NCBI RefSeq assembly: GCF_001887355.1
Contig: NZ_MPIN01000022.1
Coordinates: 1-64,000, forward strand
Source of the DNA: Cystobacter ferrugineus
GTDB taxonomy: Bacteria; Myxococcota; Myxococcia; Myxococcales; Myxococcaceae
Reading direction: 5' to 3'
DNA: 64,000 nt
Shown one piece after another: positions 58,672 through 63,695 of the stretch (positions within the stretch are counted from its first letter, which is position 1; each line of letters opens with the position of its first letter). The translations under genes and the position numbers were made by a program. The notes under the pieces were generated by a model. That model did no database searches. It worked only from the letters and a program-made list of their open reading frames with translations, and was not told the DNA's origin.

Positions 58672-59880
58672 TCAGCCACGCGGCGGCTGGGTGTGAAAGT
58701 CATCGGCGCGGGGCTCGAAGCGCACCGGCAGACGCAGGGGGCCGCGCGCGATGTATGACTGGGACCAGGACACTTCCTGTCGGGTCAGCGAGACGCCGCG
58801 GATGCGGGCCAGGAGCGCTTCCAATCCCAGGCGGGCTTCCATCCGGGCGAGCTGCGCCCCGAGGCAGAAGTGGATGCCATGCCCGAAGGGCAGGTGGCCC
58901 TGGCCCTCCCGGTCCAGGTCGAACCGGTCCGCCTCCGGGTAGCGCTGCTCGTCCCGCATGGCCGAGCCCAGCAGCACGGCGACGAGGGCGCCTCGGGGCA
59001 CGCGCACTCCGCCCACCTCCGTGTCCTCGGTCACCAGCCGCAGGCTGGACTGGGCGGGGGGCTCGTAGCGCAGCACCTCCTCGATGAGCCGGGGGATCAG
59101 CCGGGGCTCGGCGATCACGCGCTCCGCCTCGCGCGGATGCCGGGTGAGGACGAGCACGGTGTTGGAGAGCAGGTGGGCCGTCGTCTCGAAGCCGGCCGGC
59201 AACAAGCTGAAGAGGAAGCTCATCCGCTCGTCGTCCGTCAGCCCCTCCGCGCCGAGCAGCTCGCTCACCAGATCCTCCCCTGGCGCGGCCCGGCGCGAGG
59301 CGAGGAGGGCCTGGAAGCAGCGCTCCATCTCCTCGAGGCTCTGGCGGATCTCCTCCCTGCGCTCGGGTGTGGGGTGGCTCGCGGGAATGCTGAGCAGATC
59401 ATCCGCCCAGACGCGCATGCGCGGCCACAGTTCCGGCTCCAGGCCGAACAGGAGGCTGAGCACCCGCACCGGAAGCCGCAGGGAGAACGCGGCGACGAAG
59501 TCCACCTCCTGCTGTCGCACCACCGCCTCGGCGAGCTCCTCCGCGATGGCGCGGACCTGGGCCTCCAGCCGCTGGAGGGCCGCGCCGCTGAAGGCCCTGC
59601 TCACCAGACCTCGCAGCCGGGTGTGCTCGGGAGGATCCTTCATCACCAGCGAGGCGGCCACGGGGTTTCGCTCCAACCAGGGGGGCAGGAAGCTCCGGCC
59701 GAGGCCCGCCGACGAGAAGCGCCGGGTGTCCTTGAGCACCGCCACCACGTCGTCATGGCGGCTGACGGCCCACATTCCTCCCGGCTCCACCTGGCACACC
59801 GGCCTTCGCCGGAGCTCCGCGTAGAGAGGGTAGGGATTGGCCCGCACGTCGGGTGCCATCAGGTTCAGGGGAGCGCTCAT
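58672..59880 (-). CDS. Cytochrome P450 (second)
   Basis: The 402-residue product starts at ATG 59880 with AGGA upstream. The N-terminus is the standard short soluble type (LMAPDVRANPYPLYAELRRR). The I-helix reads LLPAGFETTAHLL, ExxR is EEVLRYEPPAQ, and the heme loop is LPFGHGIHFCLGAQLARME. Size is typical for bacterial CYPs. It stands alone, divergent from a histidine kinase gene, with two spaced palindromes between. An open frame extends upstream to 60342 but lacks support. The substrate is unknown. Confidence 0.93.
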   Translation of the reverse strand: MSAPLNLMAPDVRANPYPLYAELRRRPVCQVEPGGMWAVSRHDDVVAVLKDTRRFSSAGLGRSFLPPWLERNPVAASLVMKDPPEHTRLRGLVSRAFSGAALQRLEAQVRAIAEELAEAVVRQQEVDFVAAFSLRLPVRVLSLLFGLEPELWPRMRVWADDLLSIPASHPTPERREEIRQSLEEMERCFQALLASRRAAPGEDLVSELLGAEGLTDDERMSFLFSLLPAGFETTAHLLSNTVLVLTRHPREAERVIAEPRLIPRLIEEVLRYEPPAQSSLRLVTEDTEVGGVRVPRGALVAVLLGSAMRDEQRYPEADRFDLDREGQGHLPFGHGIHFCLGAQLARMEARLGLEALLARIRGVSLTRQEVSWSQSYIARGPLRLPVRFEPRADDFHTQPPRG

Positions 59881-60011
59881 GGGTTGCTTCCTCGGATTGA
59901 GACGGGGTGGGACGGCTCGGGTCCGCGGTAGGGGCAAGGTGCGTGCCACCACTGGACCCCTCGGCCCTCCGAGGAGCGACGGTTCCGCCGCGATGAGGCG
60001 TCTCGCCCGGT

Positions 60012-60026
60012 CGGTCGAATCGACCG
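60012..60026. promoter_or_regulatory. Palindromic site A between P450 and histidine kinase
   Basis: CGGTCGAATCGACCG is a perfect 6-3-6 palindrome. Paired with site B, 22 bp away centre to centre. Confidence 0.6.
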
Positions 60027-60033
60027 AGGAGAG

Positions 60034-60048
60034 CGTTCGAATTGAACG
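60034..60048. promoter_or_regulatory. Palindromic site B between P450 and histidine kinase
   Basis: CGTTCGAATTGAACG matches site A at 12 of 15 bases. The outer difference (G to T on the left, C to A on the right) is compensatory, so the dyad is kept. Confidence 0.6.
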
Positions 60049-60211
60049 AGTGGTTGCGCGCGGGGTGTGCCTCGGAGGGCGATGAAGCCGGTTCATCCCT
60101 TGCCTGGTGTGGAGCAGACGAGCGATGGCTGGCCGGCCTGTCTCTGTCCACTTCTGGACACCTTCATGCGCTATCCTCAGGCGGGGGGTCCGCGGCGAGC
60201 GCGACATCAAC

Positions 60212-62180: not shown

Positions 62181-63695
62181 TCAGTTCGTTCCGGGCGCCC
62201 AGTAGGCCCGTGCCCGGGGAAAGAGGAAGTCAGCCACCTGGCGTCCGAGCTCCAGCCCCGCGACGTTGTCGGCCTGGATGTGGTAGCCGCCCATGATGCG
62301 CGAGATGCCCGCCAGCTCCGCCGTCTCACTGAACGTCGGCAGCGCCAGCGTCACCTGGCAGTCCTCGGGCGTGTCCTGGGAGGGCACGCCCTCGCGCTGC
62401 TGGATGATGTTGCACGCGAAGCCCGGCTCGGTGAGGGCCCCCGCGGTGAGCTGCTCCACCTTGCCGAAGGTGTCGCTGCCCGTGAACAGCTCCAATACCC
62501 GGGCGCACGCGGCGCTCACCGTGCTGTGGCCGGAGACGTAGCCCGGGAAGGGCGGCGTGATGAACGTGTAGGGTGAATACGGGTGCCACTGCTCGGCGGC
62601 AACCCAGTCCACGCCCTGGCCCGGCCCCACCCAACCCAACAGCTCGTCACCCGCGTGGTAGTAGCGCACGAGCGTCCAGGGCCGGGAGGAGTCGTAGAAG
62701 CGCTTGGACTCCCAGGCGGCGATGAAGGCATCCAGCGCCGCGTTGCCCACGGTGAAGAAGAGCTTCACGTCCCGGTCCAGGCCGTAATGGTCGCGGCGCG
62801 ACACGTCCTGCGCGAAGCGCAGCCAGTGGCCGGACTGGGCCGTGGAGCGGGGGCCATCGCGCATGAACTCGACGAGCGCCTTCTGCTCCGGGGTGAGGTT
62901 GGCGTTGTAGTCGATGATCTCCTGCACCTCCTGGGCGAGCTGCGCCGAGCCCACCTTCGGAGGAGGCGGCGGACGGAACTGGGCGCTGGTGGTGAGCGCG
63001 AAGGGCCGCACCTTGTACCAATGGGGGGTGAGAAAGCCGGGCGTCACGGTGCCACCCTGGCCGTCATCGAACGAGATGGGCTGCCAGCGGTCGGGATCGA
63101 TGATGACGTCGGGCGGATTGACGGGCGCGTAGCCGGTGTAGTCGGAGTAGGGGACGCCGCTGGAGCCGGGCTCGTCACCGAGCTGGTTGGCGCCATCGTG
63201 CCGCCGCCAGGCGAGGAGCGCGGCCGCGGCGGTGTTGCCCACTCCCTGGGGCGTGGCGAGGTTGGTCGAGGTGTCGTTGGGGTCGTACCCCATGCCGCTC
63301 ATCTGCTGCGCGAGCCATGCGGCATCCTCCGGGTAGAACTCCAGGAGGGCGCGGTAGGTGGCGTAGGCGATGGCCTTCTGCTTGCGGGCCAGGGTCCGCT
63401 CGGAGGGGGGCCGGCGCAGGCTGCCTCCCAGCCGGGTGCCCACCGCGCGCGCGTCATAGGCCGCCCACGCGTCGTACATGGCCGTCACCGAGATGGCGTG
63501 GGCACGGGAGATGACCGTGGGCCGCGCGCCGCGCCGTTCTACTTCGCGGGCCGTGGCCTCGAGCACGATGTCCAGCCAGCGGTATGCGGCGGAAGGCCCG
63601 TGGCCTCCCTCCGGAGTGGGGGTCTCCGCCCGGGCCGGTGGGGCGAGCAACAGAATTGGGATGAGACAAGCGAGGAGCTGTCGAGGTTGGAGCAT
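62181..63695 (-). CDS. Exported vanadium-haloperoxidase-like phosphatase-superfamily protein
   Basis: The 504-residue product has a signal peptide (LLACLIPILLLAPPARA) and GGAG before the ATG. All three vanadate/phosphate-binding motifs of the PAP2/haloperoxidase superfamily are visible: K-x6-RP (SKRFYDSSRPWT), SGH (PPFPGYVSGHSTVSAA) and SR-x5-H-x3-D (SRIMGGYHIQADN). It therefore could bind vanadate and oxidise halides with peroxide, or act as an acid phosphatase. Size (~480 mature residues) fits the haloperoxidase-like branch. It is exported to the periplasm or outside. It ends 13 bp from the convergent histidine kinase. Confidence 0.87.
   Translation of the reverse strand: MLQPRQLLACLIPILLLAPPARAETPTPEGGHGPSAAYRWLDIVLEATAREVERRGARPTVISRAHAISVTAMYDAWAAYDARAVGTRLGGSLRRPPSERTLARKQKAIAYATYRALLEFYPEDAAWLAQQMSGMGYDPNDTSTNLATPQGVGNTAAAALLAWRRHDGANQLGDEPGSSGVPYSDYTGYAPVNPPDVIIDPDRWQPISFDDGQGGTVTPGFLTPHWYKVRPFALTTSAQFRPPPPPKVGSAQLAQEVQEIIDYNANLTPEQKALVEFMRDGPRSTAQSGHWLRFAQDVSRRDHYGLDRDVKLFFTVGNAALDAFIAAWESKRFYDSSRPWTLVRYYHAGDELLGWVGPGQGVDWVAAEQWHPYSPYTFITPPFPGYVSGHSTVSAACARVLELFTGSDTFGKVEQLTAGALTEPGFACNIIQQREGVPSQDTPEDCQVTLALPTFSETAELAGISRIMGGYHIQADNVAGLELGRQVADFLFPRARAYWAPGTN

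Follow-up and report, generated by a model that had tools for sequence, protein, structure and literature searches.

A pair of palindromic sites upstream of a Cystobacter ferrugineus cytochrome P450 gene as the predicted enhancer of a sigma54 promoter served by a XylR/DmpR-type activator in trans

The window that we analyzed is a 64,000-nucleotide stretch of DNA from Cystobacter ferrugineus (contig NZ_MPIN01000022.1). A gene for a 402-aa cytochrome P450 lies on its minus strand at 58672-59880 (Pfam p450, E = 2.9e-31), with its ATG at 59880 and a Shine-Dalgarno-like GAGGAAG at 59887-59893 on the same strand, which we read from the sequence 6 nt before the ATG. Across an intergenic gap, a histidine kinase gene runs on the plus strand, starting at 60209 (ATG) or farther upstream at 60107 (GTG). 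This gap contains two 15-bp palindromic sites to which no strand was assigned, the promoter-proximal site A at 60012-60026 (CGGTCGAATCGACCG) and the promoter-distal site B at 60034-60048 (CGTTCGAATTGAACG). A perfect 11-bp inverted repeat, GCCCTCCGAGG at 59964-59974 and CCTCGGAGGGC at 60070-60080, flanks both sites, with its arms 95 nt apart. Elsewhere in the window, the minus strand at 62181-63695 encodes a 504-aa protein in which DUF6851 is combined with VCPO_2nd, the second helical domain of vanadium chloroperoxidase.

Site A is a perfect 15-bp dyad (7/7 arm pairs), site B has 6/7 arm pairs, and the two share 12 of 15 letters at a start-to-start spacing of 22 bp, which bears out a preliminary description of the two sites as closely similar dyads. 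The mismatches between A and B fall at position 3 (G/T), position 10 (C/T), and position 13 (C/A). Positions 3 and 13 are dyad partners that change jointly from G-C to T-A, and the change at position 10 disrupts the 6/10 pair in site B, so the earlier claim that the arm differences alter both partners holds for the 3/13 pair and fails for the 6/10 pair. When we required at least 6/7 arm pairs in both sites, a sum of at least 13/14, an identity of at least 12/15, and a distance of 15 to 45 bp, the window yielded one pair and 30 order-1 random windows yielded none.

The genome-wide motif scan proposed with the preliminary description located the exact pair TCRANNYGA-N13-TCRANNYGA at a single place in the 12.05-Mb genome. 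Exact N13 pairs were found at further places in the related genomes G010, G017, G043, and G071, among the matches listed. Taken alone, the single-site consensus is not rare at two mismatches; it matches the window genome 70 times in the forward and 83 times in the reverse direction, and the reversed control gives 29 and 27 matches. A scan of the window genome (G000) for the core pair at one mismatch gave 10 forward and 12 reverse matches versus 6 and 7 for the control, and we claim no additional target from it. The corresponding scan for TTC-N5-GAA pairs at one mismatch gave 15 forward and 15 reverse matches versus 9 and 9 for the control. The pair in the window is not among these matches, since site A reads GTC/GAC and not TTC/GAA.

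The preliminary description had included neither a named regulator nor a sigma54 promoter. We found a putative sigma54 -24/-12 element, TGGCACGCACCTTGC, at 59934-59948 on the minus strand, which has 11/11 letters of what we take to be the -24/-12 consensus. The promoter fits the GG-N10-GC type expected of a XylR/DmpR-type sigma54 unit, and the two palindromic sites expected upstream of such a promoter are present. Sigma54 itself is encoded in the window genome. Transcription of the P450 gene is predicted to start near 59922, which places the dyad centers ∼97 bp (A) and ∼119 bp (B) upstream of the start and ∼73 bp and ∼95 bp, respectively, from the -24 GG; the sites occupy 64 to 100 bp upstream of the element without overlapping it. 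In the accessible parts of the sources, DmpR-type activating sites are placed ∼100 to 200 bp upstream (PMC7264223) and enhancer-binding protein sites 80 to 150 bp upstream (PMC7910581). The distances measured here fall inside these ranges or at their near end, depending on the reference point.

We searched 96 family genomes for the P450 and obtained 12 orthologs, including that of the window genome, with at least 62% identity; the next matches had at most 57%. All 12 upstream regions carry two dyads on a TCRNNNYGA core, so the comparison of the same gap in relatives, also suggested earlier, showed both sites to be kept with every P450 ortholog. The spacing is 22 bp in nine orthologs, 21 bp in G043, and 23 bp in G078 and G085. 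In G039 and G042, other spacings tie with or exceed the 22-bp core score, and the palindromes are clear (13/14). The proximal site is exactly CGGTCGAATCGACCG in 4 of the 12 (G000, G041, G039, and G042) and one letter off in G010 and G043. A -24/-12 element with at least 9/11 letters is also found in every ortholog at the corresponding place, 52 to 68 bp before the ATG, and the distance from the distal site to this element is 100 to 103 bp in the nine genomes listed in register and ∼70 bp in G043. Only 1 of 26 P450 paralogs had a sigma54 match of at least 9/11 anywhere in 250 bp. A pair score of at least 10/12 together with a sigma54 score of at least 9/11 was found for 12/12 orthologs versus 0/26 paralogs.

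The 15 distinct sites of the orthologs have 73 of 105 arm pairs complementary, whereas column shuffles had a mean of 58.5 and none of 2,000 reached 73. For alternative complementary pair types at the same 15 sites, 27% of the shuffles were as high. These counts indicate that symmetry has been kept and that the argument from compensatory changes is partly right; the selection on symmetry proposed earlier is partly supported, by the excess of complementary arm pairs and not by the number of alternative pair types.

The preliminary description had placed the two dimers between the P450 and the histidine kinase. We rejected a histidine kinase operator because the kinase is kept at 90% identity in G003 and at 88% in G002 while the sites are gone. 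In these two genomes of the same genus, only a remnant of the P450 gene is left, and the stretch with A and B is missing. Moreover, among the loci read on that side, the neighbor is a gene other than the kinase in G010, G016, G017, G041, G068, G071, G078, and G085, and the sites accompany the P450 gene there all the same.

In 6 of the 12 orthologous loci (G016, G017, G068, G071, G078, and G085), the divergent neighbor of the P450 gene encodes an activator, and in these linked loci site B lies directly before the activator start codon. Pfam analysis of two of the proteins (G016 and G017) showed XylR_N, V4R, Sigma54_activat, and HTH_8 domains, by which the divergent activator is a predicted XylR/DmpR-type enhancer-binding protein. 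We predict that sites A and B are dimer sites of this V4R-type sigma54 activator. Operators of an unrelated dimeric repressor (e.g., TetR- or MarR-like) for the P450 or kinase gene are very improbable here. Dyads of 15 bp, as is generally known, fit many regulators, but a V4R activator is the divergent neighbor in half of the loci, the sites do not cover the sigma54 element but lie well upstream of it, and like pairs precede V4R activator genes without a P450 partner.

In the other six genomes, namely that of the window and five of genus g8, the activator ortholog is not linked to the P450 gene. The window-genome gene (G000:C18:71967-73595) is intact, and its 542-aa product has the GAFTGA motif at residue 307. 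The sensor of this protein aligns with MopR/PoxR-type structures and MopR-type phenol sensors (E = 6.9e-27), and the alignment keeps Cys, Glu, Cys, and Cys, presumably the MopR zinc ligands, as well as a His and a Trp that we take to be the MopR phenol contacts. In a tree of the 49 V4R activators whose loci were at hand, a subset of all search matches, a single branch, supported at 100/97, separated the 13 P450-linked activators from the rest. The trans activators of g8 have operators of their own that resemble those of the P450 gene, as in G043 (CGGTCGAAACGAACT/CGTTCAAAATGAAAG versus CGGTCGAATCGAACG/CGTTCAAAATGGAAG). Upstream of the window-genome activator, there was no good pair, the best score being 10/12. 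A single long dyad, GGGCTACCTTTCGTTCACGATGAAAGGTAGCCC, precedes this gene (L104:5935-5968, G000:C18) and overlaps its Shine-Dalgarno region; it could fold in RNA. Genus g8 probably includes Archangium violaceum (L125, which matches G042 in its sites and its identity), and g15 is probably Hyalangium (L126, with the same upstream region as L112).

We determined how pairs are spaced before V4R activator genes in general, using 80 bp upstream of each of 39 nonredundant genes from the 49. Core pairs scoring at least 11/12 were spaced 21 bp apart in 18, 22 bp in 5, 23 bp in 3, and 24 bp in 3, versus at most 3 at any other spacing and at most 2 at any spacing in 500 shuffles, although the core TCRNNNYGA was picked after the sequences had been seen and the test is therefore not blind to the motif. 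An arms-only palindrome test on all 49 upstream regions also gave its highest value at 21 bp (8.47, with a top shuffle of 8.16), in a profile that is not sharp. The half-sites differ by branch and are of the CTCTCA type in the paralog branch and of the TTCRA type in the P450-linked branch. The loci L087, L096, and L152 to L159, with others, form a second V4R branch, whose members have pairs of the CTCTCA type at a 21-bp spacing ahead of the start codon.

It is scarcely credible that the dyads are RNA hairpins, such as an attenuator or terminator, or chance symmetry. The sequences can fold, and site B of G016-type loci extends into the Shine-Dalgarno region of the activator gene. Nevertheless, the dyads lie upstream of the predicted P450 transcription start, their spacing is conserved while the letters of the arms vary, and chance symmetry is excluded by the spacing test and the random windows. 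The retention of the pair at 21 to 23 bp in the relatives instead supports the earlier suggestion of a paired operator on which two dimers would sit on one face of the helix, two turns apart.

The activator clade is present in all 12 genomes with the P450 versus 1 of the 84 others, G040, which has the activator without the P450. Because the genomes are related, these counts are not independent, and we attach no probability to them. The G003 locus is more telling than the co-occurrence counts. At the syntenic place in G003 (L160, C8), approximately the first 8 residues of the activator are fused to its last 14 between flanks that are 92 to 93% identical, and this remnant follows a gene read as a flavohemoglobin gene. 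In G002 (L163), the whole activator frame has been cut out at the syntenic place, with flanks of 93% identity. Therefore, both genomes without the P450 and its sites have lost the unlinked activator too.

The window P450 is 81% identical to those of G017 and G068 and 71% identical to those of g8, whereas the window-genome activator is 87 to 91% identical to those of g8 and 66 to 67% identical to those of G017 and G068. Since their closest relatives differ, the P450 and the activator have different histories and were not always inherited together, a conclusion that we draw from percent identities and not from a reconciled tree. An intact operator combined with different histories would fit an exchanged or relocated P450 gene that is served by a resident activator.

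Given a regulator at a distance, the sites might be sigma54 activator sites that another V4R activator uses, namely, the 49% paralog at G000:C3:513712, or that none uses, as a relic or through cross-regulation. We consider this improbable. The absence of an adjacent activator in the window genome and the presence of a second V4R activator there speak for it, but the operators of the C3 paralog itself have another half-site (CTCTCAAAATGATAG/CACTCATTTCGAGAG in L096), and the C3 ortholog is kept in G002 (L087) despite the loss of the P450 and the sites. A relic also agrees poorly with a C18 activator that is full length and retains GAFTGA and with sites A and B that are among the most symmetric of all the ortholog sites.

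We conclude that A and B are very probably the upstream activating pair, or enhancer, of the P450 sigma54 promoter and that they are used by a XylR/DmpR-type activator acting in trans, an assignment made from comparative sequence data. We infer that two dimers of the activator, with its XylR_N-V4R sensor, GAFTGA-containing AAA+ domain, and HTH_8 domain, would occupy A and B on one face of the helix. The effector is probably a small molecule, aromatic or terpenoid-like; it would free the AAA+ domain, and by looping of the DNA, the activator would touch sigma54-RNA polymerase at 59934-59948, ∼75 to 95 bp away. This contact would open the P450 promoter and turn on transcription of the P450 gene. 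In the window genome, the activator would work in trans from G000:C18:71967-73595, and in linked loci, activator bound at site B may also govern or limit the expression of its own gene.

This predicted circuit shares with DmpR, XylR, and MopR (e.g., MphR, which is divergent from mphKLMNOP) the XylR_N-V4R sensor, the GAFTGA-containing AAA+ domain, a Fis-type helix-turn-helix, and paired palindromes upstream of a -24/-12 promoter, as well as, in six orthologous loci, a divergent activator gene. The comparison with these systems also draws on the accessible part of PMC3900584. The circuit differs in its target, which is a single P450 here and a multicomponent hydroxylase in the DmpR/XylR/MopR systems, and, in the window genome, in an activator that is unlinked. 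The spacing of 21 to 23 bp, 22 bp in the window, also differs from the 31 bp (L173) and 41 bp (L170) of two plasmid XylR/DmpR-like loci, which do not by themselves fix the range of the family; such spacing is a usual trait of these loci and does not define them strictly. Both were plain to read; L172 and L174 were not and went uncounted, and L171 was not included. The geometry here is tighter than that of the two plasmid loci, but paired activating sites as such are already known, as the accessible parts of three papers indicate (PMC7264223, PMC3040749, and PMC3063778).

NmpR and Nla28 of Myxococcus xanthus are likewise myxobacterial enhancer-binding proteins; they are NtrC-like and have paired sites upstream of sigma54 promoters. 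To our knowledge, neither has a V4R sensor. As described in the text available to us, the NmpR site is GCGCA-N5-TGCGC, and five of the seven promoters that NmpR binds have their sites 14 to 15 nt apart, the exceptions being pilR (5 nt) and mxan_4246 (24 nt) (PMC11841059). With 15-bp sites, 14 to 15 nt corresponds to ∼29 to 30 bp from center to center, and the pair studied here is tighter. The Nla28 half-site is given as CT(C/G)CG(C/G)AG in the part of PMC7910581 that was accessible. A literature search, with most subscription journals outside its coverage, found no report of a V4R activator acting on a myxobacterial P450 gene.

What had been an anonymous palindrome pair becomes a testable circuit in which a single activator, with a predicted sensor for a small aromatic-type molecule, would act through one enhancer and one promoter on one P450 gene. 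Bacterial P450s attract interest as catalysts, and knowledge of the inducer would give a lead to the natural substrate. Loci with a linked or an unlinked activator, together with the paired losses, offer a natural series on how enhancer and activator stay matched after separation. The accessible part of PMC7264223 describes DmpR with bound phenol as a tetramer made up of two dimers, and a spacing of two helical turns is relevant to the question of whether DmpR-type proteins act as tetramers.

Beyond the 12 orthologs, three Sorangium P450 loci with 48 to 49% identity have two dyads at 21 bp, located 86 to 87 bp before a GG-N10-GC element that scores only 7/11 on the sigma54 consensus. The two dyads are near perfect in these loci (L130, L131, and L133), those of L131 being CGGTCAAGATGACCG and CGGTCATCTTGACCG. 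Sorangium cellulosum So0157-2 has, in this search, one V4R activator, which is unlinked and falls inside the P450-linked clade with a local support of 0.96; the 250 bp upstream of its gene held no pair scoring 10. We give about even chances to a broader reading in which a myxobacterial V4R branch has pairs two turns apart, as a preset tetramer site, and an old inducible P450 circuit, which Sorangium shares, has fallen apart and been rewired. Pairs closer than those of the known DmpR-type loci would hold two dimers side by side. The P450 gene and its paired enhancer may have passed between lineages or been retained in a changed gene neighborhood, with the activator remaining at another chromosomal location, and loss of one part would have been accompanied by loss of the other.

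A paper on methyl jasmonate mentions, in its accessible part, a P450 that goes down (PMC6997564); we draw no link from it to the window P450. By sequence, the closest solved relative of the window P450 is CYP109Q5 of Chondromyces apiculatus (6gmf, E = 1.2e-83). The accessible part of the CYP109Q5 paper mentions 6GMF and names terpenes, steroids, and drugs as substrates (PMC6389848).
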